A DNA stretch of 64,000 nt, from the NCBI GenBank assembly GCA_022827245.1, contig JAJDTI010000001.1:35311-99310 (forward strand), read 5' to 3'. Positions 11,824 to 29,998 of this stretch are shown here, in pieces. This DNA is from Pseudomonadales bacterium. Lineage in GTDB: Bacteria > Pseudomonadota > Gammaproteobacteria > Pseudomonadales > Azotimanducaceae. A program made the translations under genes and the position numbers. Position 1 is the first letter of the stretch. The number at the start of each line of letters is the position of its first letter. The notes under the pieces are model-generated. The model ran no database searches. It saw nothing but the letters and a program-made list of their open reading frames with translations, and was not told the origin of the DNA.

Positions 11824-12291
11824 ATGAGACGCGCTATCGTCGGCTTCCGTCAGGACGAACACGAAGACTGGGTGGCCGACCTCGACTGCGGCCACCGCCA
11901 GCACGTACGCCATCGCCCGCCGTTCATCTTGCGGCCCTGGGTGGAAGACGCCGCAGGGCGCGAGTCGCACCTGGGCACCCGACTCGACTGCGCGCTTTGC
12001 GACCGCATGGAGTGGCCCGACGGCCTGGCCGCCTACGCTCGCACTCCGGAGTTCGACCAGGACACGGTGCCGCGTGGGCTCGTCTCCTCTCACACCACCA
12101 GGACCGGTGTCTGGGCACGCATCCACGTGCTTGAGGGCACGATCCTGTATCGGGTGGAAGCTCCCGTGGACCGCTGCGTGCGCTTGGGAGCCCCGGCCAC
12201 TGGCATCGTCGTCCCCGAGGTCCCCCACCACGTGGAGCCGCAGGGGCCGGTGCGCTTCTTCGTCGAGTTCTTTCGGCTCGCGCGGGATTGA
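11824..12291 (+). CDS. DUF3565 + DUF1971 (TehB-like) fusion protein
   Basis: GFRQDEHEDWVADLDCGHRQHVRHRPPFILRPWV...; C-terminal VWARIHVLEGTILYRV...VPHHVEP. Confidence 0.7.
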   Translation: MRRAIVGFRQDEHEDWVADLDCGHRQHVRHRPPFILRPWVEDAAGRESHLGTRLDCALCDRMEWPDGLAAYARTPEFDQDTVPRGLVSSHTTRTGVWARIHVLEGTILYRVEAPVDRCVRLGAPATGIVVPEVPHHVEPQGPVRFFVEFFRLARD

Positions 12292-12341
12292 CGCGAAGCC
12301 TTGCGGGCCTAAAATGCCATCATGTTGGCGGATATGACGAC

Positions 12342-12590
12342 ATGATACGCACCCAGATTCAGCTCACCGAGGAGCAACTCAGAAGCCTCAAGGCCCTCGC
12401 CCGCGAGGAGGAACGTTCCGTTGCCGACCTCGTCCGCCAGAGCGTTGCCGAGTACCTGGTGCGCCGACCCACGGTGGACCGCGCCGAGCTGGTCCGACGC
12501 GCCCGCGGCCTGATCGGCCGGTACCGGTCCGGAATTCCCGATCTGGCCGAGAATCACGACCGCTACCTCGACGACGCGTTCGACACGTGA
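12342..12590 (+). CDS. ribbon-helix-helix antitoxin (VapB-like)
   Basis: MIRTQIQLTEEQLRSLKALAREEERSVADLVRQSVAEYL; overlaps downstream PIN toxin. Confidence 0.85.
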   Translation: MIRTQIQLTEEQLRSLKALAREEERSVADLVRQSVAEYLVRRPTVDRAELVRRARGLIGRYRSGIPDLAENHDRYLDDAFDT

Positions 12591-13003
12591 GCCTGTTCGT
12601 CGACACGTCCGCGATCGTGGCCATCGTCGACGCCGGCCAGGATCGGCACGCGGACGCCGCAGCAGCGTGGGAGGCCGCCCTCGAATCCGGCCGCGCGCTG
12701 TACACGTCGAACTACGTGCTCGTCGAGACGTTCGCCCTGGTGCAGCGCCGTCTCGGGTTGGCGGCGTGCAGGGAGGTCTCGACCACACTCGTTCCGCTCC
12801 TGAGTCCCTTGTGGGTGGACGAAGCCCTCCACGAGACCGCCCTGGCAGCCGTGTTCGCGGCCGATAGCCGGAGCCTCTCGTTCGTCGACTGCACGAGCTT
12901 CGAGATCATGCGCCGCCACGGACTCGGGGAAGCCCTGACCCTGGATCGCGACTTTACGCGGCAGGGTTTCCTCGTTGCGCCGAACCCGCGCGGTTCCGTC
13001 TGA
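12587..13003 (+). CDS. PIN domain toxin (VapC-like)
   Basis: SLFVDTSAIVAIVDAGQD..., C-terminal SFVDCTSFEIMRRHGLGEALTLDRDF. Confidence 0.88.
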   Translation: MSLFVDTSAIVAIVDAGQDRHADAAAAWEAALESGRALYTSNYVLVETFALVQRRLGLAACREVSTTLVPLLSPLWVDEALHETALAAVFAADSRSLSFVDCTSFEIMRRHGLGEALTLDRDFTRQGFLVAPNPRGSV

Positions 13004-15374: not shown

Positions 15375-15716
15375 TCACCCGGCGAGCCGCAGCTTGCCAC
15401 CGCCAGCCGAACGAGGCCGTCGCACGACGATGTCGATGTCGGGGCCGAGCGCGGTCAGGAGGCGCAGCAGACGCTCCAGTGAGTACTCGCGGAAGTCACC
15501 TCTAAGCAGCCGGGAGACATCGGGCTGGGAGAGCCCGAGCAACCGTGCGGCCTCGGTCTGGGTAAGGCTACGCTGGCGGATGATCGCGTCGATCCGGGAA
15601 ACGAGTCCGGCCTTCAGGAGATGGGCGTCGGCATCCGGCAGACCCAGATCAGCGAAGACGTTGCCGCTGCCGCGCTCTACGTCGGTGTCACGGGTGTCCA
15701 TGGCATCATCGGTCAT
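15375..15716 (-). CDS. HTH XRE-family antitoxin (HigA-like)
   Basis: IRQRSLTQTEAARLLGLSQPDVSRLLRGDFREYSLERLLRLLTALG. Confidence 0.85.
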   Translation of the reverse strand: MTDDAMDTRDTDVERGSGNVFADLGLPDADAHLLKAGLVSRIDAIIRQRSLTQTEAARLLGLSQPDVSRLLRGDFREYSLERLLRLLTALGPDIDIVVRRPRSAGGGKLRLAG

Positions 15717-16062
15717 CAAGCGTCTCCTGGTGGTGGCGTTCGGCGGCGCGCAGCCGGCGCGCAATGAGATCGAGTTCGCGTTTCGGCGTGCGGATCCCGC
15801 GGCTGGACTTCTTCTGGAAGGCGTGCAGCACGTAGATCGCAGCTTCGAAGCGGACGGTGTAGACCGCGCGAAAGGTGTCGCCGTCGTAGCGCGCGGCGAC
15901 CTCCAGGACGCCGGAGCCGAAGCCCTTGAGAGGCTTGGCGTCGCGGTGCCGGAGACCGACCTGGGCCTGGTGGATGGCAAAGCCGATGCGACGTCGCACC
16001 GGATCCGGGAACAGCTTCAGGTCGGTGTTGCTCGATCCCACCCATTGAACCGGTTTCAGCAT
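15706..16062 (-). CDS. RelE/HigB-like (phage-derived Gp49-like) toxin
   Basis: KPLKGFGSGVLEVAARYDGDTFRAVYTVRFEAAIYVLHAFQKKSSRGIRTPKRELDLI; overlaps downstream HTH gene. Confidence 0.88.
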   Translation of the reverse strand: MLKPVQWVGSSNTDLKLFPDPVRRRIGFAIHQAQVGLRHRDAKPLKGFGSGVLEVAARYDGDTFRAVYTVRFEAAIYVLHAFQKKSSRGIRTPKRELDLIARRLRAAERHHQETLDDR

Positions 16063-16152: not shown

Positions 16153-18762
16153 CTACCACTCCAGGCCGACCTTCACGTAGGCAAACCGCCCGTTGAATCC
16201 GCCCGGCGCGTACTGGCTGAAGCGGTTGCCGAGGCCGGTGCGGGCGTTGGGATTCTCCTCCGGCGTCTCGTCGAACAGGTTCTCCGCACCGAACGTCACG
16301 GTCAGGGAGTCCGTCGCGACGTAGTGGACCAGGACATCCACCATGCCGTAGCCGTCGAAGTCGAGACCTTCCTCCGAGTCGTACCACCCTCCGTAGCGGT
16401 TCAGGCGCGCCGTGACGTCGAACCGGCCGAGCGAGTGGCTGGCCGACAGGAGCAGGCGCCGCTTCGGCAGACCGGCCTCGTAGTCGCGGATCTCGCGCGC
16501 GTCGTCGAGCGGGCCGCCCGGGGTGTAGCGGTCTACCTCGGTGTCCGTAAGGTTGTACGCCCCGGTGAAGACGGTGAAGCCCGCCGCCGTTTGCAGGCGG
16601 TAGCTGCCGGTCGCCTCGCACCCCGTGGTGACGGTGGTGAAGTCGTTGGTGAAATAGTTGATGTAGTTCCAGCTTCGCGCCGACGTGAGGCCCGCGCGTT
16701 CGAGCATGGCGAGCAGGTCGCCCCGCACGCGGTCGCGGCCGAGGTCGGGCCGGTTCAGCTCGATGTCGCGAGACAGCGCGAGCCGGTCGCGGACCCGGAT
16801 ACGGTAGCAGTCCAGGGACGCCGTGAGCGATGCGCCGACGTGGACCAGTCCCAGCGAGAGGTGGGTGGACCGCTCCGGCTTCAGCGGCGCGCCGCCCAGG
16901 ACCACGCCGACCGGGCTCGTCGGGGCGATCGTCGAGACGATGGACAGCGCGCGCTCGGCGCCCTCCCCGCCGATCTTCGACGTGGCATTGATGGCGTTCG
17001 ACTGGCCGGGCGTGGGTGCGCGAAAGCCCGTGCTCACGGTACCCCGCAGCGCCAGCCGGTCGTTCAGGGCGAAGCGCGAGGCCAGCTTGCCGTTCGTGGT
17101 GCCGCCGAAGTCCTCGTAGTCCTCCCACCGTACGGCCAGGCCCACGGTCCAATGGGGCCGCGGGTCGGCCTCAATGTCGGCGTACAGCGCCCGGTTGGCG
17201 CGCGACCACCGCCCGGCCGTGTCCGGGCTGAATCCGGGGAAGCCATTGGTGGCCGCGGTGAACCCCTGGGACTGGAGATCGACCGCGGCCCCCATCCAGT
17301 CGAAGCGGCGTTCCCACGACGCCGGCTCGCCGCCGCGGATCTCGAACTCCTCCTCGCGCCACTCGGCGCCGAACGCAAGGTTCGCAGCGTCCGCCAGGAC
17401 ACCCCAGTCGAGCGGATAGGCCAGGTCCACGTTGACGGTCGTTTCGCGTTGGACGTAGTCGCCCGGGTCGAAGCGGTAGTCCGCGGGATTGGCGGGTCCG
17501 AGCGCGGCGTTGACGGTGTTGTAGATGAAGAAGTCCACGTCGCTGACGCCGGTCCCGACACTCAGGTCCCACGTGAGCCCGCCGTCCCGCCCGCCCCGCA
17601 GGCCCGCGAAGGCCGAGTAGTCGGTCGTGTGGCCCCCGAAACGCGGCGTGAACCCGCCGGGAAACAGCGCGTTCATCACGAAGCAGCTGGGATGCGCTTC
17701 GCGGAATGCGTCCGACTGAAACACGCCGTTCGCGTAGTAGGCGCCCTCGGGTGCGAGGTCGGCCGGGCACGCGCCGGAGTTATCGCCCGTCAGGTCGCCC
17801 ACCAGGCGGTGTGCGCCTTGGGTATAGACGCCCTCGCGGTCGTTGGGATTGCGGTAGTAGAAGCCGCCGTCCGTTTCCTTGGTTGCGTAACTCGCGAACG
17901 CGTAGGCCTCCACGCGCTCCGTCGGCCAGAAGCCCAGATTCAGGAAGGTCTTCAGATTGTCCCTGACCTCGGGGCTCCCCCAGAGCTGCGCCGGATCGGG
18001 CACGGCCGCGTTGCCGGCGGCCGCGAGCGCCGCTGCGTCGGCGCGCTGCACGCTGCGCACCGTGTCCCCGGACTCGCCGTACTCCACGGTGAGGTTCGCG
18101 AAGCCGGCGGCGCCGAGGGCGATGCCGCGATTGACGGCGACGGTGACCGCTTCGCCATCCCCCGCCGCGGTGCGGCCGTAGCGCACCTCGGCGGCGCCGC
18201 CGGCGGCGGCGTCCTTGAGCACGAAGTTCATCACGCCGGCAACGGCGTCGGACCCGTACTGCGCCGCCGCGCCATCGCGGAGCACCTCGACGCGTTCCAG
18301 CGCCATGGACGGAATCACGGACAGGTCCGGCCCCTGCGCCCCTTCCGAGGCCTTCGGCACGAGCCAGGCGATGACCGCGCCGCGGTGGCGCCGCTTGCCG
18401 TTCACCATCACGAGGGTGTGGTCGGCGGCGAGATTGCGGATGTTGGGCGGGCGAACGATGGTCGCGCCATCGGCGATCGGCTGCATGTTCACGTTGAACG
18501 ACGGCACGCTGTCGCGCAGCAGATCGAGCACGTCCGTGCCGCCGCGTTCCCGCAACGTGGCGCCGTCGACCACGTGCACGGGAGACTTCGACTCCGCCGC
18601 GCTCTGCCCCGCGCGCCGGCTGCCCACCACGACGACCAGCTCCTCGATGCCGTGCGTGGCCGGTTGCTCGTCCGCGGCCATCCCGGGCGGTGCCGACGCC
18701 AGGCAGAAGGCCGCCACCGCGCAGCGGGGCATCCAGGGTTGTCGGCATCTGGTCAAGGGCAT
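16153..18762 (-). CDS. TonB-dependent receptor
   Basis: Signal peptide; ELVVVVGSRRAGQSAAESKSPVHVVDG plug, DLLRDSVPSFNVN, YGSDAVAGVMNFVLK, C-terminal GLEW. Confidence 0.93.
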   Translation of the reverse strand: MPLTRCRQPWMPRCAVAAFCLASAPPGMAADEQPATHGIEELVVVVGSRRAGQSAAESKSPVHVVDGATLRERGGTDVLDLLRDSVPSFNVNMQPIADGATIVRPPNIRNLAADHTLVMVNGKRRHRGAVIAWLVPKASEGAQGPDLSVIPSMALERVEVLRDGAAAQYGSDAVAGVMNFVLKDAAAGGAAEVRYGRTAAGDGEAVTVAVNRGIALGAAGFANLTVEYGESGDTVRSVQRADAAALAAAGNAAVPDPAQLWGSPEVRDNLKTFLNLGFWPTERVEAYAFASYATKETDGGFYYRNPNDREGVYTQGAHRLVGDLTGDNSGACPADLAPEGAYYANGVFQSDAFREAHPSCFVMNALFPGGFTPRFGGHTTDYSAFAGLRGGRDGGLTWDLSVGTGVSDVDFFIYNTVNAALGPANPADYRFDPGDYVQRETTVNVDLAYPLDWGVLADAANLAFGAEWREEEFEIRGGEPASWERRFDWMGAAVDLQSQGFTAATNGFPGFSPDTAGRWSRANRALYADIEADPRPHWTVGLAVRWEDYEDFGGTTNGKLASRFALNDRLALRGTVSTGFRAPTPGQSNAINATSKIGGEGAERALSIVSTIAPTSPVGVVLGGAPLKPERSTHLSLGLVHVGASLTASLDCYRIRVRDRLALSRDIELNRPDLGRDRVRGDLLAMLERAGLTSARSWNYINYFTNDFTTVTTGCEATGSYRLQTAAGFTVFTGAYNLTDTEVDRYTPGGPLDDAREIRDYEAGLPKRRLLLSASHSLGRFDVTARLNRYGGWYDSEEGLDFDGYGMVDVLVHYVATDSLTVTFGAENLFDETPEENPNARTGLGNRFSQYAPGGFNGRFAYVKVGLEW

Positions 18763-18867
18763 CCACAAGGACCGTACGTCACCACCCCTCCGTCGGGGCA
18801 ATCGACCTGCGCAAACGCCTGATCCGCGCTACGTATCTTCTCATGCGCGATTGCATGATGTACGTCG

Positions 18868-18885
18868 TGAGACATCTATGTATCA
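18868..18885. promoter_or_regulatory. Putative TetR-type operator
   Basis: TGAGACAT-CT-ATGTATCA; arms match 7/8 and resemble the palindrome at 20963-20984. Confidence 0.55.
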
Positions 18886-18931
18886 TGGCGGGGAATGAAA
18901 TCGAAGCGAGGAGGTTGCCGAAGGGCAACGT

Positions 18932-20020
18932 GTGAAGACCGCTGACGCCGGACAATCGACCTTCGACCCGGCCCGGGCGCTGCCCGCGGCCGCGTACAGG
19001 GATCCAGGATGGCTCGCGGCCGAGAAGGACCGCATCTGGCACCGCGACTGGGTCTTCGCGACCACCGAGGACGCGCTCGCGGAACCGGGCGACCAGGTTC
19101 CCGTGACGATCGGCGATCAGCCTGTTCTGCTCCTGCGCAACCAGGCGGGCGAACTGGTGGCCCTGTCGAACCTGTGCGCCCACCGGGGGACGCTGCTGGT
19201 CGAGCAGCCAGCCAACGCCAGGCGCATTCAGTGCCCCTACCATGCCTGGACCTACGACGACGCCGGTCGACTGGTCGGCGCGCCTTTCGCGCCGAGCGGC
19301 GTCATCGACAGATCGGCCCACCGTCTCCCCACGTATCGTGTCGAGTCCTGGCACGGGCTCGTGTTCGTCAGCCTCGACGACGGCGTGGAGTCGCTCGCCC
19401 GGCGCTTCGCCTTGATCGAACGGCATGTGTCCGCCGCCGGAATCGATGCCCTGGATCACCGGGCAGACATGCAATCGGCGGAAACGTGGGCCTGCAACTG
19501 GAAGGTCGCGATCATCAATGCCATGGAGAGCTATCACCTCTTCAAGGTCCATCCCGAGACCCTCGAACCCTTCACGCCCACCAGGGATGCTTACTACGTC
19601 GCGGGTTCCGCCCGGGCGACCGCCACCGGCGGCGCGTTCAAGGGCCAGGACGACTATCTGCTGCTCAGCCTGCCACCCGGGTTCGTCGGGGTGCTCACCC
19701 GAGGGAGCTTCGTCTGGCAGGCCGTGCACCCGGTAGACAGCGACCGTTGTGCTGTCCGCACCGGGGGAGCCTACGCATCCCACCGACCCGCCAGCCCTTT
19801 CGGACGGATCGGCAAGTGGCTTGGTCGGGCGGCCGCAGCCGCGTACCCGCAACCCGACTTCCTGCGGGAGGACAAGGCCATCTGCGAGCGCGTACAGCGC
19901 GGCGTCACCGGCGATTTCCTTCCGGGCACCCTGGTACCCATCGAGCGGGTCGTGCGCGATTTCGGGGACTATCTCAACTGGCGGCTCAACGACGTCGAGC
20001 CGCCCCTGGCTCGCGACTGA
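18932..20020 (+). CDS. Rieske 2Fe-2S aromatic ring-hydroxylating oxygenase alpha subunit
   Basis: CAHRGTLLVEQPANARRIQCPYHAWTYDDAGRL (CxH-17-CxxH); NAMESYHLFKVHPETL metal-binding site. Confidence 0.93.
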   Translation: MKTADAGQSTFDPARALPAAAYRDPGWLAAEKDRIWHRDWVFATTEDALAEPGDQVPVTIGDQPVLLLRNQAGELVALSNLCAHRGTLLVEQPANARRIQCPYHAWTYDDAGRLVGAPFAPSGVIDRSAHRLPTYRVESWHGLVFVSLDDGVESLARRFALIERHVSAAGIDALDHRADMQSAETWACNWKVAIINAMESYHLFKVHPETLEPFTPTRDAYYVAGSARATATGGAFKGQDDYLLLSLPPGFVGVLTRGSFVWQAVHPVDSDRCAVRTGGAYASHRPASPFGRIGKWLGRAAAAAYPQPDFLREDKAICERVQRGVTGDFLPGTLVPIERVVRDFGDYLNWRLNDVEPPLARD

Positions 20021-20030
20021 TCCGAACTCC

Positions 20031-20291
20031 ATGGAACCAGTCGGAACGCCGTCCCAAAGCCGGTTCCGGCCGTGGCTCACCTGGGCCGCGCTGGCGGCGA
20101 TCTGGTGCGCCGCGGTCCTGGATCAGCTTTGGGTGTTCTCGCTTCTCCTGGTGGCGTGGGCCCTCTACGACATCCGCACGGGGGAGAGCCTCTTCATACA
20201 GCGCATCACCCGACGACAGCAGCCGGTGACGTACTGGATCATCGTGGCGACCTGGCTCTCGTTCGGTCTACTCGGGATCCTGTATCGGTGA
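20031..20291 (+). CDS. small membrane protein of unknown function
   Basis: 86 aa, three hydrophobic segments, directly downstream of the Rieske gene. Confidence 0.65.
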   Translation: MEPVGTPSQSRFRPWLTWAALAAIWCAAVLDQLWVFSLLLVAWALYDIRTGESLFIQRITRRQQPVTYWIIVATWLSFGLLGILYR

Positions 20292-20330
20292 AGGCCGCCA
20301 ACGGCGGCTCGAGGTGCCCATGCAACAACC

Positions 20331-20888
20331 CTATCGCAGCCCAACAGTCAGGGTGCGCACGGCCAGTTCGGTCGCTTCGTCGGCGCTGAGGTAGCCTTCC
20401 GCAACGGCGTTCCACGCCGTCCAGACGAGTTGATCGATCTGCGCGACGACCCAGGCCGAGGGGACGTCCCTGCCGACATCTCCCTGTTCCTTCAGGTCCT
20501 CGACCAACGCCACGGCCCACTCCAGTTGCGTCCCGTAGCCCTCGTCAACCCTCCGGTCGTCCGTGTAGTTGGTACCGAGGAAACTGTATCGGTCGCCGAG
20601 CGGAATGACCGCCCGGAACATGTTCCGCAGCCGGTCGACGGCGCGTTGACCCGCCGTGGCCTGCGCCCGGACGGCCGCGTTCATGTCCTCGATGCAGCGG
20701 ATCCCGATGGCGCTGACGAGGTCGTCCCGGGTACGGAAATGACGGTGCAGCGTTGCCCGGCCGACGCCGGCCTGGACGGCGATCTCGCTCATCGTCGCAC
20801 CGGCGTTGGCGTTCAGAACGCGAATCGCGGCTTCGACGATCGCCTCCAGGGTCGCCGGACGGATGACGTGTCTTCGAGGTGCGCTCAT
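20331..20888 (-). CDS. TetR/AcrR family transcriptional regulator
   Basis: [43 protein letters not shown]. Confidence 0.93.
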
Positions 20889-20962
20889 CCCTCAGTCCCT
20901 ACCGATTCAGGATCGCCCCGCATTACGGGTTGGGACCACGTGTGTTGACCCACATACCCCGG

Positions 20963-20984
20963 TTTGAGACATTGATGTCTCAAA
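20963..20984. promoter_or_regulatory. Perfect 22-bp palindrome, putative TetR operator
   Basis: TTTGAGACAT-TG-ATGTCTCAAA between divergent TetR and cytochrome genes. Confidence 0.65.
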
Positions 20985-21004
20985 TTGCCAGCAAGCAGGC
21001 ACCC

Positions 21005-21763
21005 ATGACCGTCAGAACCCGGGCTCAGGGAGTGGTGCCGCCACCGCTTGAACGCCGCATCCCGCTGTCCGCGGGCCTGACCAAAGCCCGCCTTCCCGGG
21101 CTTGCACTGGCGTGCGCATTCTACCTCTCGACGGCGCACGCGGCCGACTTCATCGCTTTCGAGTCGGGCCCGGTGCGCCCCATGGCGCTGTCGCCCGACG
21201 GGCGCATGCTCTACGCCGTCAACACGCCCGACAACCGGCTCGAGATCTTCACGGTGAGCGATGCCGGCACGCTCGCGCATGCAGCAGCGGTCCCCGTGGG
21301 CCTGGAACCGGTTGCCGTCACAGTCCGCAATCCTGCCGAAGCCTGGGTCGTCAACCATCTCTCGGACTCGGTCAGCATCGTCGACACGCAAGCGCTGACG
21401 GGGACCACGCCGGGGGAACCCGGCGTGCCGTTCGTGGCGCGCACGCTCCTCGTCGGCGATGAACCGCGCGACATCGTCTTTGCCCAGGGCCGGGCGTTCA
21501 TCACGACCGCGCACCGTGGCCAGCAGCGTACCCACCCGTCCATTGCCGACGTTCCCGGCGCCGGAGACCACCAACTGCACACGCCGGGGATCGGCCGGGC
21601 GGACGTCTGGGTGTTCGACGCCGAACAACCCGGCCCGGGCGTGGGCGGTACGCCGCTCAGGATCGTCGAACTGTTCGGCGACACGCCACGCGCGCTCGCC
21701 GTGAGCCCGATGGCAACACCGTCTATGCAGCAGTGTTCCATTCGGGAAACCAGACCAGCGTGA
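21005..21763 (+). pseudogene. N-terminal fragment of frameshifted YVTN beta-propeller/cytochrome c protein
   Basis: Signal peptide then [31 protein letters not shown]; homology continues in another frame after about 21706 (alternative ATG at 20975 lies within the palindrome). Confidence 0.7.
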
Positions 21764-24700
21764 TTCACGAAGCCGTGATGTGCCGGGGATTCGAGGATAC
21801 GCCCCGGGGCTACTTCGTCGGCGCCACCTGGGCGCCCCGGCGGGGCGATCAACGCTGCATCGCCGGCCAGGTCCCCGCCCGGCATGCAACCGCGTCTCCC
21901 AACGGACCGGCAGACAAGACCCTGCCCATGGGGCGCCCGTTGCCGAGCACCGGGGCCGACGGCGAGCCCGCTCCGTTCACCGCCATGATCGTCAAATGGC
22001 ATGAAGAGTCCGGCGAGTGGCGGGACTCACGAGGCCTGAACTACTCGAACGGGATCCGTTTCTATCTCCCGGACAGGGACGTGTTCGCGCTCGACGCCGC
22101 CACGCTGGAGGAGGCAGCCAGTTTTCGCCACGTCGGCACGACCCTGTTCAACATGGCGGTCAACCCCGTGACCGGCAGGATCTACGTAGCCAATACCGAC
22201 GCGCAGAACCACATCCGCTTCGAAGGTCCGGGCGTTCGCGGCGGATCCACCGTTCAGGGCAACATCGCGCACACGCAGATCACCGTCATCGATCCCGCCA
22301 CCGGCTCGGTCGACCGGAGGCACCTGAACCGCCATATCGACTATACGGTGCTGAAGGCGTCCGCCGACGTGCGCCGGCACAGCCTGTCCACGCCGCTCGA
22401 ACTGCAGGTGAGCGCCGATGGCGCCACACTCTACGTCGCCGCCCTGGGCTCCGACCGGATCGGCGTGTTCGCCACCGCCGACCTGGAGAACGATGCGCTG
22501 TGGGACGGCACCGGCGAGGAGTTCGATCCGACGGTTGCCAGCGCCGGCTATCTGACGGTGACCGGCGGGCCCGCCGGCCTGCTGCTCGATGAGTCGCGTA
22601 ACGGTGAGAACGGGTTGCTGTACGTTTACACGCACATCGACCGCGGCATTAGCGTGATCGATCCGTCAACCGGCGCCCTCTTGCAGACGGTTCAGCTCCA
22701 CAACCCGGAACCCCCTTCCGTGCTTGCCGGCCGGCGGATGCTGTACGACGCGGACGGAACCTCGTCGAACGGCGAGTCGTCCTGTGCGAGCTGTCATGTC
22801 TTTGGCGACACCGATCATCTGAGCTGGAACCTGGGCAACCCCGATGCGGCAAACTCGGTCAACCCACAACCCTTTCCCACGTTTTCCGATTTTTTCCTGA
22901 ACTGCGATTTCTTCGGCCACTACCCGGGGTGCGAATTCGTGCCCTGGGTCAACGGCAACGGCGACCAGCTCGCGTTTGCCTCGATGAAGGGTCCGATGGC
23001 CACGCAGACCATGCGCGGCATGTCCACCCACGGCCACATGCACTGGCGGGGCGACCGGGCCACAGGCTACTTCGGGACGGACGATGCGCAAACGCTCGAT
23101 GAGAAGCTCTCCTTCAAGAACTTCATCGTCGGCTTCGAGAGCCTGCTCGGCCTGGACGTGGAGCTCACGGACGCCGGCCGTCCCGACAAGCCGCCGGAGG
23201 TCGTTCGACTCGAGGACGACGTCGACGCGTTTGCCGACTTCATGCTGGCCGTGCAACTGCCGCCCAATCCCATCAAGCCGCTGGACAACCGCCACAGCCC
23301 GTCGGCGCGGCTCGGGGACGCGTTCTTCAGCGGGCCGCGACGCTCCGACGGCACCGGCCCGGGATTCGATCTCCCCGACAACCGCAATGGCGCGGAACCT
23401 GACGGCCGCAACTGCGAAGGCTGCCACACCCACGAACCCGCCAAGGGCTTATTCGGCACCGACGGCAGCGCAGGGCACGGCGGTGAAGTGCTGATCCTGA
23501 AGGTCCCGCACCTGCGCAACCTCTACCAGAAGGTAGGCATGTTCGGGCTGCCGAACCGCGAGTACTTCCTCCCCTCCACCACCGAGGCCCACCAGGGGGA
23601 CCAGATCCGCGGTTTCGGGTTCCTGCACGACGGCGCCACCGACAAGCTGTTCAACTTCCTGCAGGGCGCCGTATTCGACGACGGCGCCACGACCTGCGCC
23701 GACCTCGGGGTACCGGACAGCGCCAGTTACGGGGGGTCGTTGGGCAGCTGGTTCGGCTGCGATTTCAGTGACGGAATGGACGTCGGCATCCCCGGGGACA
23801 CGGTGCGGCAAGGCCTGGTCGACTACCTCATGGAGTTCGACACCGACCTCGCGCCGATCGTCGGGCAACAGGTCACGCTGGACGCGACCAACGCCGCATC
23901 CGCCAACCCGCGCATCGACCTGCTGCTCCGGCGCGCTCCGACGCCTTTCGAGTCGTTCATTCTCGGTGGCGCCGTCACCGAATGCGACCTGGTCGTCAAA
24001 GGCGTTGTCGACGGCCAGGCGCGGGGCTGGGTACGGCGCTCCGACGGCAACTTCAAGGACGACCTGGGGTTGACGTGGACGGAAGCCGACGTGCGTGCGC
24101 TCGCCGCGCAGGAAGGTCCCCTGACCTATACCTGCGCGCCGCCGGGTTCAGGGGTGCGCATGGGGATCGACCGGGACGGCGACGACGTGCCGGATGGCGT
24201 CGACAGCCGCCCCTCCCACGCCAACGTCGATCAGAACGACGCGAGATCACTCATGCCTTCGGTGTCCCGAAGCCCTGACTGGCGCTCAGTGCCTCCGCGA
24301 GTCGCTCTCTCCCGCTCCGGACGCTCCGCCGTCCTCGAAGTGGGCGCGTACCTCCTCCATGACGCACCGCTTCAACTCGGCGGGGTCCGCGCCGCCCTCG
24401 GCGTAGCGCTCCGCCAGGAGTTCGAGGTCCCGCTCACCGAAGGACAGGCTGATGCGTGGGCGCTGGATCTTCGCGTAGGGGAGACCGACCAGCTTGCGGA
24501 CGTAGTCGGAGTAGCTGAGGTTCTCGGCCGCCGCGGCAAGCCGGATCCTGCGCATCAGCGACTGCTGGAACTCGAAGTGGACCTGCACCTTCCGGAGCGC
24601 CTGCCGCTCCGCCTGGAAGCGCTCGGCGGACGGCGCCTGCGACCCGCGCCGCCTGGGCCGTCCCCTCCTCATCGCCCCTGGCTGTCCCCCGGCCACATCG

Positions 24701-25318: not shown

Positions 25319-26014
25319 TCAACCGGCCTGACGGGCCTTCAGCCGCGCGAGCACGTCGTTCGCGCCGCCGCTGCCGGACGCGCCGATGCCCTTCGCGCGC
25401 AGCTTCGCGTCGATGTCGTCCCCGGCCTCCTCGCCTTCGAGCCACTCGCCGGCCTGCATGCGGTCCTGCCAGTTTTCCTGCTTGGCCTTGACCCGCTCGA
25501 GCGCCGCCGAGACCCGGTGCGAGCTCGAACCGGTGGCCGCGAAATTCCGCGACACGGACTCGGTCGCGCGCTGCAGTTCCTGCACCGTGCGCACCTTGTC
25601 GAGTTCCCGCTTGTTCTTCTGGATGGTCCGCTCGCGGGCCTTGATCATCGCGTGGATCTTGTTGATCTCGGCATCGAGCGCGGCCTGCTCGGAACCCTTG
25701 TCGTTCCGGTCGCTCTCGAGCTCCGCGATGCGCTCCGCCACCTCGGTGGCCAGGGCTTCCTCGCCGGCGTTCAGCGCGGCGACCGCCTTCTGCTCGTAGT
25801 CCGCGACGTCGGCATCGAGCGTCGCCATCTCCCGCTTCAGCTTGATCTCCGAGCTCTTCATGCGCGTCAGGCTCTGCTTCGCGCTGCCGATGGCCGCCTC
25901 CGCGTCCCGGATCTCCTGTTCGAGGATGCGGATCGCGTTCGCGTCCACGATGGCCTCGCCCACCTCGCTCGCGCCGCCCCGCAACGCCGTCAGCATGTCT
26001 CTCAATACACCCAT
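25319..26014 (-). CDS. PspA/IM30 family protein
   Basis: Coiled coil: MGVLRDMLTALRGGASEVGEAIVDANAIRILEQEIRDAEAAIGSAKQSLTRMKSSEIKLKREM. Confidence 0.9.
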   Translation of the reverse strand: MGVLRDMLTALRGGASEVGEAIVDANAIRILEQEIRDAEAAIGSAKQSLTRMKSSEIKLKREMATLDADVADYEQKAVAALNAGEEALATEVAERIAELESDRNDKGSEQAALDAEINKIHAMIKARERTIQKNKRELDKVRTVQELQRATESVSRNFAATGSSSHRVSAALERVKAKQENWQDRMQAGEWLEGEEAGDDIDAKLRAKGIGASGSGGANDVLARLKARQAG

Positions 26015-27216: not shown

Positions 27217-28095
27217 ATGGAAGCGATGACCCCCCGGTTCGTCCGCGTCTACGGCGGCGATCACTCCCCCTGGGTGCAGGCCGTCCTTCTCGGCCTGCAC
27301 CTGAAGAGGATCCCGCACGACGTGGTCACGTTCCCGCCGCTCTCCGTCTTCCTGCGCTCCGGAGTCCTGATGCCGGCGGTGCGCATCGACGGCGGCCCCT
27401 GGCATCACGACTCCACGCGCATCCTCGAAGAACTCGGCTTCTCGGGCAAAGCGCCGGGGGACGACCGCATGCTCGCCGGCGCACTGCGCGGCGGGACCAA
27501 CCGGACCGACAGCGCCTGGCGTTTCTGGCACCGGTGGAGCCTGGTGCGGGAACGGCGGGGGCCTGCGCCGGCGCGCATGCTGCGCGGCGCCCTGCGCAGC
27601 TTCACGGTGCTCTATTTCTACCTCACGCTCGAGTCGCTCGGACGCCGGTTCGGGCACTCGTCCGAAGACGATATCCGCCGTAGCTGGCAGCGCTGGGAAG
27701 GGCGTTTCGCGAAGCACCCACACCCGTTCCTGGGCGGCGCGGAGCCGGGTCTCGTCGACCTGCAGTTGTTCGGGGGCCTGCAGTGTCACTGCAGCATTTC
27801 CGTCCCGCCGGTCGCCGTGCTGCAGACCGACCCGTCACTCCCGCATGTGCGCGAGTGGATCGCGTCCATGCAGCGTCTCTTAGAAGACTATCCGCACCTG
27901 TACTCCGGAGTCTTTTTCGAACCGTCCCTGCCGTCGCCGGCGCGCGCGCCACTGCATGAGCAGGTCAGCTTCTGGCTGGGCAGTGTCGCCACGATCCTCG
28001 CCTTCCCGGTGACCGTGCCGCTGTGGTACTTCTACATGCGGCATGTCCGCAGAAGCGGCAAGCTCGGGCTGCCGAGTCGGCGCCGGCGCGCCTGA
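27217..28095 (+). CDS. glutathione S-transferase-like protein
   Basis: RVYGGDHSPWVQAVLLGLHLKRIPHDVV; GGPWHHDSTRILEEL. Confidence 0.75.
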   Translation: MEAMTPRFVRVYGGDHSPWVQAVLLGLHLKRIPHDVVTFPPLSVFLRSGVLMPAVRIDGGPWHHDSTRILEELGFSGKAPGDDRMLAGALRGGTNRTDSAWRFWHRWSLVRERRGPAPARMLRGALRSFTVLYFYLTLESLGRRFGHSSEDDIRRSWQRWEGRFAKHPHPFLGGAEPGLVDLQLFGGLQCHCSISVPPVAVLQTDPSLPHVREWIASMQRLLEDYPHLYSGVFFEPSLPSPARAPLHEQVSFWLGSVATILAFPVTVPLWYFYMRHVRRSGKLGLPSRRRRA

Positions 28096-28147
28096 CCCGA
28101 AGGTCGACTACACTCGCTCGTGGACTCGCGGAGCAGGACGGCCGATC

Positions 28148-29998
28148 GTGAACGCGCCCCTACGTGAACCATGCGCCATTCTCCTGTTCGTCTGCTGTGC
28201 CGGCTGTTCCGACGTTCAGGCGCCTCCCACTCCCGGATCTCCCGCCGTGACCGACGGTCTCATCGAAGCGAACCCCGAACGCAACGCCTACTTCGGCGAC
28301 CTGCACGTGCATACCGCCAACTCCTTCGACGCGTTTGTCCTCGGGACAGTCGCGACGCCCGACGATGCGTATCGCTTTGCGCAAGGCGAAGCGCTCCGGC
28401 ACCCGGGCGGTTTCGACATGAAGCTGCGGGAACCGCTTGATTTCTATGCGGTGACCGACCATGCGTTCTACCTGGGCATTACACGGGCCATGGCCGATCC
28501 CGAGAGCCCGATGTCCAGACACCCGGATGCCAAGGCCCTGGCCAGCGTGCTTACCCCCGACGGGCGGATGCGTGCCTTCCGGGTAGGGGCGCAGTTCACG
28601 CAGCCGATGAGTCCCCGCTATCGCGAGATCGATGACCCGGCGACCAGCCGGGCCGCCTGGCTGGACAACATCTCGGCGGCCAATCGACACAACGACCCGG
28701 GTCGGTTCACGGCCTTCATCGGCTACGAGTACACACCGGGCCCCGTGGTGCGGAATCTGCATCGAAACGTCCTCTTCAAGGGAGATACGGCGCCCGACAT
28801 GCCGTTCTCCCAGTTCGACTCCGAGAATCCGGAAGATCTCTGGGCATGGATGGACGCGCTGCGCGAGCAGGGGATCGAGAGCCTGGCGATACCGCACAAC
28901 TCGAACCAGTCCCGGGGCCAGATGTTCGCCCTGGTGGACTTCGCGGGAGATCCCATCGACGCGGACTACGCATCGGTACGGAGTCGCAATGAGCCCCTGG
29001 TCGAGATCAGCCAGACAAAAGGCACGTCGGAGACGCACCCGCTGTTGTCGCCGAACGACGAGTGGGCGGCTTTCGAGACCCTGTCGTACAGGGTGGGTTC
29101 GAGGGAGCCATTGCAGGTCAGGGGCAGCTATATCCGGGAAGCGCAGCTCAACGGACTGAAGCTGGCGGAACAGCAAAGGTTCGATCCGTTCAAGGTGGGC
29201 GTGATCGGCTCCAGCGACACCCACAACGGCAGCAGCGGCGGCGAAGAAGAGGATTACTGGGGTCCCGCCGGCATGATGCACGCGAACGGCGTATTGCGCG
29301 GGTCGGTGCCGAACGCCACCGGCGTCTACCAGGGCGACCCGGCTTTCCCGACTTTCGGCGCCTCGGGCCTCGCCGGGGTGTGGGCGGAACGCAACACGCG
29401 CGCCTCCCTCTACGATGCCATGCGCCGCAAGGAAACCTTCGGCACCAGCGGAACCCGGATCAAGGTGCGGTTCTTCGCAGGTTACGACCTCCCCCACATC
29501 GACAGCGAGAACATGGTCGGCGAGGCCTATGCCGGCGGAGTGCCCATGGGTGGCGACCTCGTCGCCCGGGCCGATCAAACGCCCGCGTTCATCGCATGGG
29601 CCCTGCGCGACCCGTCGAGTGCGCCGTTGCAGCGGCTGCAGATCATCAAGGGCTGGATCGCGGAAGGCGAAATCCGGGAAGCGGTGTTCGACGTGGCGTG
29701 CTCCGACGACGGAGCGGTCGATCCGGCGACCCATCGTTGCCCCGACAACGGCGCCCGGGTCGACGTGACCGATTGCAGGGTCATGGAAGGGACCGGCGCC
29801 TCGGAACTCAAGGTCCGTTGGCGCGATCCCGGGTTCGATGCCGCGCAGCGCGCGTTCTACTATGTCCGGGTACTGGAAGACCCCATATGCCGATGGTCCA
29901 CCTGGGATGCGATTCGGGCCGGCGGCGCTCCCAGGGAGGGTCTCCCGACAACCATCCAGGAACGGGCATGGTCTTCGCCCATCTGGTACGTGCCTTGA
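28148..29998 (+). CDS. DUF3604 domain-containing lipoprotein
   Basis: Lipobox-like LFVCCAGC; NAYFGDLHVHTANSFDAFVLGT; VTDHAFYLG; VGVIGSSDTHNG. Confidence 0.88.
   Translation: MNAPLREPCAILLFVCCAGCSDVQAPPTPGSPAVTDGLIEANPERNAYFGDLHVHTANSFDAFVLGTVATPDDAYRFAQGEALRHPGGFDMKLREPLDFYAVTDHAFYLGITRAMADPESPMSRHPDAKALASVLTPDGRMRAFRVGAQFTQPMSPRYREIDDPATSRAAWLDNISAANRHNDPGRFTAFIGYEYTPGPVVRNLHRNVLFKGDTAPDMPFSQFDSENPEDLWAWMDALREQGIESLAIPHNSNQSRGQMFALVDFAGDPIDADYASVRSRNEPLVEISQTKGTSETHPLLSPNDEWAAFETLSYRVGSREPLQVRGSYIREAQLNGLKLAEQQRFDPFKVGVIGSSDTHNGSSGGEEEDYWGPAGMMHANGVLRGSVPNATGVYQGDPAFPTFGASGLAGVWAERNTRASLYDAMRRKETFGTSGTRIKVRFFAGYDLPHIDSENMVGEAYAGGVPMGGDLVARADQTPAFIAWALRDPSSAPLQRLQIIKGWIAEGEIREAVFDVACSDDGAVDPATHRCPDNGARVDVTDCRVMEGTGASELKVRWRDPGFDAAQRAFYYVRVLEDPICRWSTWDAIRAGGAPREGLPTTIQERAWSSPIWYVP

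Follow-up and report, generated by a model that had tools for sequence, protein, structure and literature searches.

A predicted TetR-type operator shared by Rieske oxygenase and propeller-dihaem cytochrome genes in a Pseudomonadales genome

Results

We analysed a window of 64,000 nucleotides (contig C72, positions 35311–99310) from a Pseudomonadales assembly of 4.96 Mb, which consists of 208 contigs and is 86.6% complete. A sequence-only reading of this DNA had described a TetR-controlled gene cluster, and the layout that it claimed is present. A TonB-dependent receptor gene (16153–18765, minus strand; start codon, ATG 18765, picked by eye), with matches above cut-off to both Pfam TonB_dep_Rec_b-barrel and Plug, is divergent from a plus-strand gene (18932–20020; putative GTG start) for a 362-aa, CntA/GbcA-like Rieske oxygenase subunit identified with Pfam and NCBIfam. 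An ORF for an 86-aa hydrophobic (membrane) protein (20031–20291, plus strand) starts 10 bp 3′ of the Rieske stop codon and reads in the same direction. Beyond it lie a minus-strand gene for a 185-aa TetR-family regulator (20331–20888; Pfam TetR_N, PF00440, 38.8 bits against a cut-off of 24) and a plus-strand gene for a propeller-dihaem cytochrome (21005–24276) with a signal peptide, a YVTN propeller and the haem motifs CASCH and CEGCH. The reading frames of the Rieske, small-protein and tetR genes are open; the cytochrome gene is frameshifted, as described below. Elsewhere in the window are two ORF pairs that by eye resemble type II toxin-antitoxin systems (12288–13003 and 15375–16062; ribbon-helix-helix/PIN and RelE-like/XRE), a coiled-coil ORF that by eye is PspA/IM30-like, with small ORFs adjoining (25319–26014), and a gene for a full-length DUF3604 protein (28043–29998; 732.7 bits), a copy of which, 54% identical, is found some 2 kb away from the tetR homologue at locus L077.

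Two palindromes had been claimed in the intergenic regions, and both are present. The one between tetR and the cytochrome gene (20963–20984; predicted operator 1, TTTGAGACATTGATGTCTCAAA) reads TTTGAGACAT-TG-ATGTCTCAAA. It had been called a perfect 22-bp palindrome; the 10-bp arms are indeed perfect, but the TG centre is non-palindromic. Its 3′ end is 20 bp ahead of the cytochrome ATG, and it starts 75 bp upstream of the tetR ATG. The other (18868–18885; predicted operator 2, TGAGACATCTATGTATCA) reads TGAGACAT-CT-ATGTATCA, and matches the consensus TGAKACA-N4-TGTMTCA perfectly, with the Rieske start 47 bp away on one side and the TonB-receptor ATG 103 bp away on the other. With up to three mismatches allowed, TGAGACATNNATGTCTCA occurs twice in the window (with 0 and 1 mismatch) versus 0.07 occurrences expected, and none of 100 shuffled windows contained two occurrences. 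Across the whole assembly only three places match with at most two mismatches, namely the two window sites and C43:18861. Abundance of the motif throughout the genome had been named as grounds for abandoning the regulon; instead, perfect matches to the consensus in the 4.96-Mb assembly number two, and both are the window palindromes. The site at C43:18861, TGAGACTTCTTTGTCTCA, differs from the window sites at two positions and stands directly before a gene for a GPH-family transporter, with a second TetR gene and a second Rieske gene nearby; thus, the weaker third match also falls on the same type of gene set. The second TetR, likewise of the subfamily, and the operator-like site belonging to it are in the stretch G000:C43:16876–18878 (loci L053 and L003). 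A search of the window region for a consensus sigma-70 promoter found none.

A search with the TetR protein and a separate motif search in relatives converge on the same loci. Sites adjoin tetR homologues in four genomes (G014, G041, G071 and G067) and lie near one in a fifth (G007), and it was from reading these loci that we derived the consensus. Searching the collection with a TetR alignment gave 80 homologous tetR loci, which span Gamma- and Alphaproteobacteria, Acidobacteriota, Binatota, Myxococcota, Chloroflexota, Planctomycetota and Cyanobacteria. At 59 of the 80, the region from −260 to +60 of the tetR start contains a site with no more than one mismatch (43 of them perfect), and the reversed pattern, used as a control, gave no match anywhere. 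The 1.28 Mb of these loci contain 16 additional sites (11 perfect), of which most precede genes of the same loci for Rieske proteins, GPH transporters, the cytochrome or FA_hydroxylase. Since the 80 loci include near-copies, these counts describe conservation and not independent events. The position of operator 1 is kept in L074, L077, L082 and L055, and that of operator 2, before the Rieske gene, in L074, L075, L076 and L078. The window TetR itself has a helix-turn-helix (HTH) domain, with the conserved palindrome at 20963–20984 in its own promoter region. As judged from sequence, one TetR subfamily has TGAKACA-N4-TGTMTCA as its conserved operator. The closest named records are metagenome-assembled genomes; several of their project prefixes (SB06xx, COS and RHO) probably denote marine sponges as the source. 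The operator, the module and the combination of TetR, sterol desaturase and Rieske genes were all absent from the open-access papers searched.

Gene order around these sites was compared among relatives, for which gene calls were crude (longest ORFs plus a GC-position score). Locus L074 mirrors the window, with cytochrome, tetR, small-protein and Rieske genes and sites at the same two places. At L082, Rieske and cytochrome genes follow one another on one strand behind one operator with tetR divergent, and L124 (Binatia) is arranged similarly; at L091, L094, L096 and L099 (Acidobacteriota) the cytochrome, tetR and Rieske genes stand in a row behind a site, and at L056, L084 and L154 a single site serves tetR and Rieske jointly. 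The triad of tetR, Rieske and cytochrome genes recurs in Gammaproteobacteria, Acidobacteriota and Binatota. We surveyed the genes within 5.5 kb of 94 homologous TetRs and found a Rieske gene near 39, FA_hydroxylase near 29, a GPH transporter near 16 and the cytochrome near 10, while 23 had none of these four partners; 8 of the 10 TetRs near a cytochrome gene are also near a Rieske gene. On the TetR tree the labels for these partners fall into clusters, needing 28 changes versus 55 when shuffled, and the window TetR groups with those of L074–L078. More distant TetR homologues at L065 and L066 have the same operator type and are divergent from genes that by eye resemble those of RND efflux pumps.

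Few genomes of the class (8 of 369) have the cytochrome, and no operator was found before its homologues in other families of the class, which indicates that this control does not extend to every copy. In G575, the cytochrome gene is closely followed on the same strand by genes for a Rieske protein and a PaaE/BenC/GbcB-like reductase, in an apparent operon without this regulator; hence, the link between cytochrome and oxygenase does not depend on this TetR. As had been proposed, the cytochrome/tetR and Rieske/TonB-receptor promoters of the window have one TetR-type operator in common, which is rare in the genome and kept with the same genes in relatives. The rarity and conservation of the operator, together with the recurring tetR/Rieske/cytochrome set, make it a well-supported prediction that this TetR controls both the cytochrome gene and the Rieske gene, the latter together with its small membrane partner.

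Scanned for the motif alone, 392 genomes of the order yielded 23 perfect sites in 20 genomes, versus 4 for the reversed control. The scan recovers Rieske and tetR genes in G313, G311, G115 and G222 and the cytochrome gene in G067 (C234). Of two more perfect sites in G067, one (C243) adjoins an FA_hydroxylase gene and the other (C235) a cytochrome b561 gene; the 13 other perfect sites adjoin none of the tested module genes and may be chance matches. In the 4.5-Mb genome G040, all four places with at most one mismatch are on a single 68-kb contig (reversed control, 0): before a GPH transporter gene (18539), before a TonB-receptor gene (22183), between FAD-oxidoreductase and luciferase-like genes (33124), and between tetR and the cytochrome gene (46725). 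The claim that the TonB receptor belongs to the regulon is best supported by this contig, where an operator precedes such a gene, but the receptor is not conserved at the loci closest to that of the window. The receptor is a likely member, with moderate support.

The cytochrome has the claimed beta-propeller and two haem motifs, but its gene is not one open frame. At about 21707 (21700–21712) the window has CCC where L074 has CCCC, and this one missing C shifts the frame; consequently, the window copy may be broken or mis-assembled. The coding DNA of the two copies is 87% identical, with no further net frame change in the aligned part. The C-terminal frame has no in-frame stop at the expected end, which had been placed at 24278, and continues to 24843, so that the 3′ end is uncertain. 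The gene is intact in L074, L055, L091 and L096, and the G040 copy reads through. An assembly error and a recent mutation would both explain the frameshift. The two CxxCH motifs recur in all 10 aligned cytochrome homologues (alignment A2), and the match to CCP_MauG (PF03150) scores 20.9 bits against a gathering threshold of 25.6. AlphaFold models of the haem part were poor (mean pLDDT 49.5 and 46.9 in two models); hence, we relied on the fold match of the propeller alone. The top match of the modelled L074 propeller is the hydrazine synthase (HZS) beta subunit (5c2v_B; E 7e-15; TM 0.76 on target), at 14% identity.

The Rieske protein has the CxH/CxxH cluster residues C82, H84, C101 and H104, iron ligands of the 2-His-1-carboxylate type (H202, H207 and D314) that are invariant in alignment A3, and Glu199 at the bridging position. 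Its best NCBIfam match is GbcA (NF058607), with 105.5 bits against a cut-off of 670, and the best solved structure by profile is the carnitine monooxygenase CntA (full-length, 185 bits). No reductase gene lies beside it in the window, and one query of the 86.6%-complete assembly found no GbcB-like reductase. The cluster had been read as an aromatic or steroid-like catabolic module. The aromatic reading lacks support, and the Rieske profile, which is nearest to carnitine and glycine-betaine oxygenases, argues against it; the results speak neither for nor against a steroid-like pathway.

The 86-aa protein matched no family in Pfam or NCBIfam. Its homologues, which can also be aligned, lie beside Rieske genes on the same strand in four phyla (Gamma- and Alphaproteobacteria, three cyanobacteria, Vicinamibacteria and Myxococcota), and in further genomes they adjoin genes for FA_hydroxylase, a family of membrane lipid or sterol enzymes. 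L137, L118, L147, L110, L126 and L150 are example loci of these homologues. At L236 (G327:C2, 12–3407), genes for the cytochrome, the small protein, a 248-aa protein and FA_hydroxylase stand in a row on one strand. In the short stretches searched at L218, L219, L223, L224, L226 and L230, no module partner was found near the small protein. A single query likewise found no FA_hydroxylase homologue in the window's own genome, again in the 86.6%-complete assembly.

Discussion

We propose, with a probability of roughly 0.8 for the model as a whole, that the window encodes a TetR/operator regulon comprising the Rieske operon, the cytochrome gene and probably the TonB-receptor gene. The TetR protein (20331–20888) would bind the operator at 20963–20984, between its own gene and the cytochrome gene, and also that at 18868–18885, before the Rieske operon and probably the TonB-receptor gene. 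It would most likely act as a repressor, from which a ligand, probably the substrate or product of the pathway, would release the DNA. Release would jointly switch on the Rieske oxygenase with its small membrane partner, the exported propeller-dihaem cytochrome and outer-membrane uptake, the products of which may cooperate in one oxidation pathway.

Bacterial genomes often hold short inverted repeats, and the palindromes could in principle be chance occurrences or other structures such as terminators. We consider this extremely improbable. Chance is rejected by the window expectation and shuffles (2 occurrences versus 0.07), by the motif scan of 392 genomes and by the strong conservation beside tetR in many phyla; that conservation also speaks against terminators, and no terminator-like site lies in the region. 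A different division of labour would have the window TetR govern only itself and the cytochrome gene, with its paralogue on C43 mainly binding the Rieske/TonB-receptor site, or the two proteins sharing all sites. The paralogue is 52% identical to the window TetR, has the same recognition-helix stretch and has a similar site nearby, but two positions of that site differ from the window sites. In addition, in L074 and L076 the Rieske site and the orthologous tetR belong to one cluster, and one site serves both genes at L056, L084 and L154, so we regard such a division as improbable. Much the same low weight attaches to the idea that the window copy is a decaying remnant in which the cytochrome gene is a pseudogene and the operators are relics. 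The one-base deletion at about 21707 and the missing C-terminal stop would fit decay, but an assembly error, or a mutation that arose very recently, would be expected to leave 87% identity to L074 and no other frame change, and the Rieske, small-protein and tetR genes are open.

The exchange of the Rieske enzyme with an FA_hydroxylase-type enzyme and the presence of a membrane partner suggest a lipophilic substrate, which we put forward at close to even odds. We infer that this is likelier than a quaternary amine, in which case the module would demethylate or oxidise a betaine- or carnitine-like compound and TetR would sense that amine. The best matches of the Rieske protein, GbcA by NCBIfam and carnitine monooxygenase by structure profile, favour an amine, as does the glutamate at the bridging position, found also in CntA. 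However, the GbcA score is far below its cut-off (105 versus 670 bits), FA_hydroxylase genes too are found with this TetR family and small protein, and betaine pathway genes were not seen in the window. An amine substrate thus seems rather unlikely, and we retain the lipophilic compound as the preferred candidate.

The operator provides a handle on a regulon family, because the number of its sites can be determined for any genome, and it links families without shared annotation: the Rieske oxygenase, the propeller-dihaem cytochrome, FA_hydroxylase and the small membrane protein. More tentatively, and at somewhat less than even odds, these may form an undescribed oxidation module that crosses phyla, in which an exported propeller-dihaem cytochrome works alongside a new small membrane subunit and a membrane-associated oxygenase that can be of either the Rieske or the FA_hydroxylase type, under one TetR subfamily acting through its operator. 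If the 86-aa protein is a membrane subunit of these oxygenases, it would to our knowledge be the first for Rieske enzymes. Identification of the TetR ligand would indicate what the module, which recurs in several phyla, acts on.

Parts of this system resemble known ones. The window TetR is like the TetR-family local repressors in its HTH domain, its palindromic operator between divergent genes and its position adjoining its targets. Unlike those of local repressors such as LfrR (PDB 2v57), the nearest solved sequence by a weak match (42.8 bits), its targets are oxygenase, cytochrome and uptake genes. As in CntA and GbcA, the oxygenase combines Rieske and mononuclear-iron domains, and it shares with the aligned CntA a glutamate at the bridging position, but it scores below the curated GbcA cut-off and is adjoined by a membrane protein. 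The cytochrome resembles the MauG/di-haem cytochrome c peroxidase family in its two CxxCH motifs and weak PF03150 match, but its haem part is fused to a YVTN beta-propeller. Propeller and two-haem parts are laid out similarly in fused beta-gamma relatives of hydrazine synthase (PMC12758564), but the window neighbourhood is that of an aerobic oxygenase, unlike that of anammox hydrazine synthase; with the haem part below the PF03150 cut-off, the relation is one of likeness, not membership. A parallel in regulation is with the TetR–FA_hydroxylase pairs of marine Alphaproteobacteria (L112–L153), in which the TetR subfamily and operator are the same as in the window, but the target is FA_hydroxylase (PF04116) in place of the Rieske and cytochrome genes.
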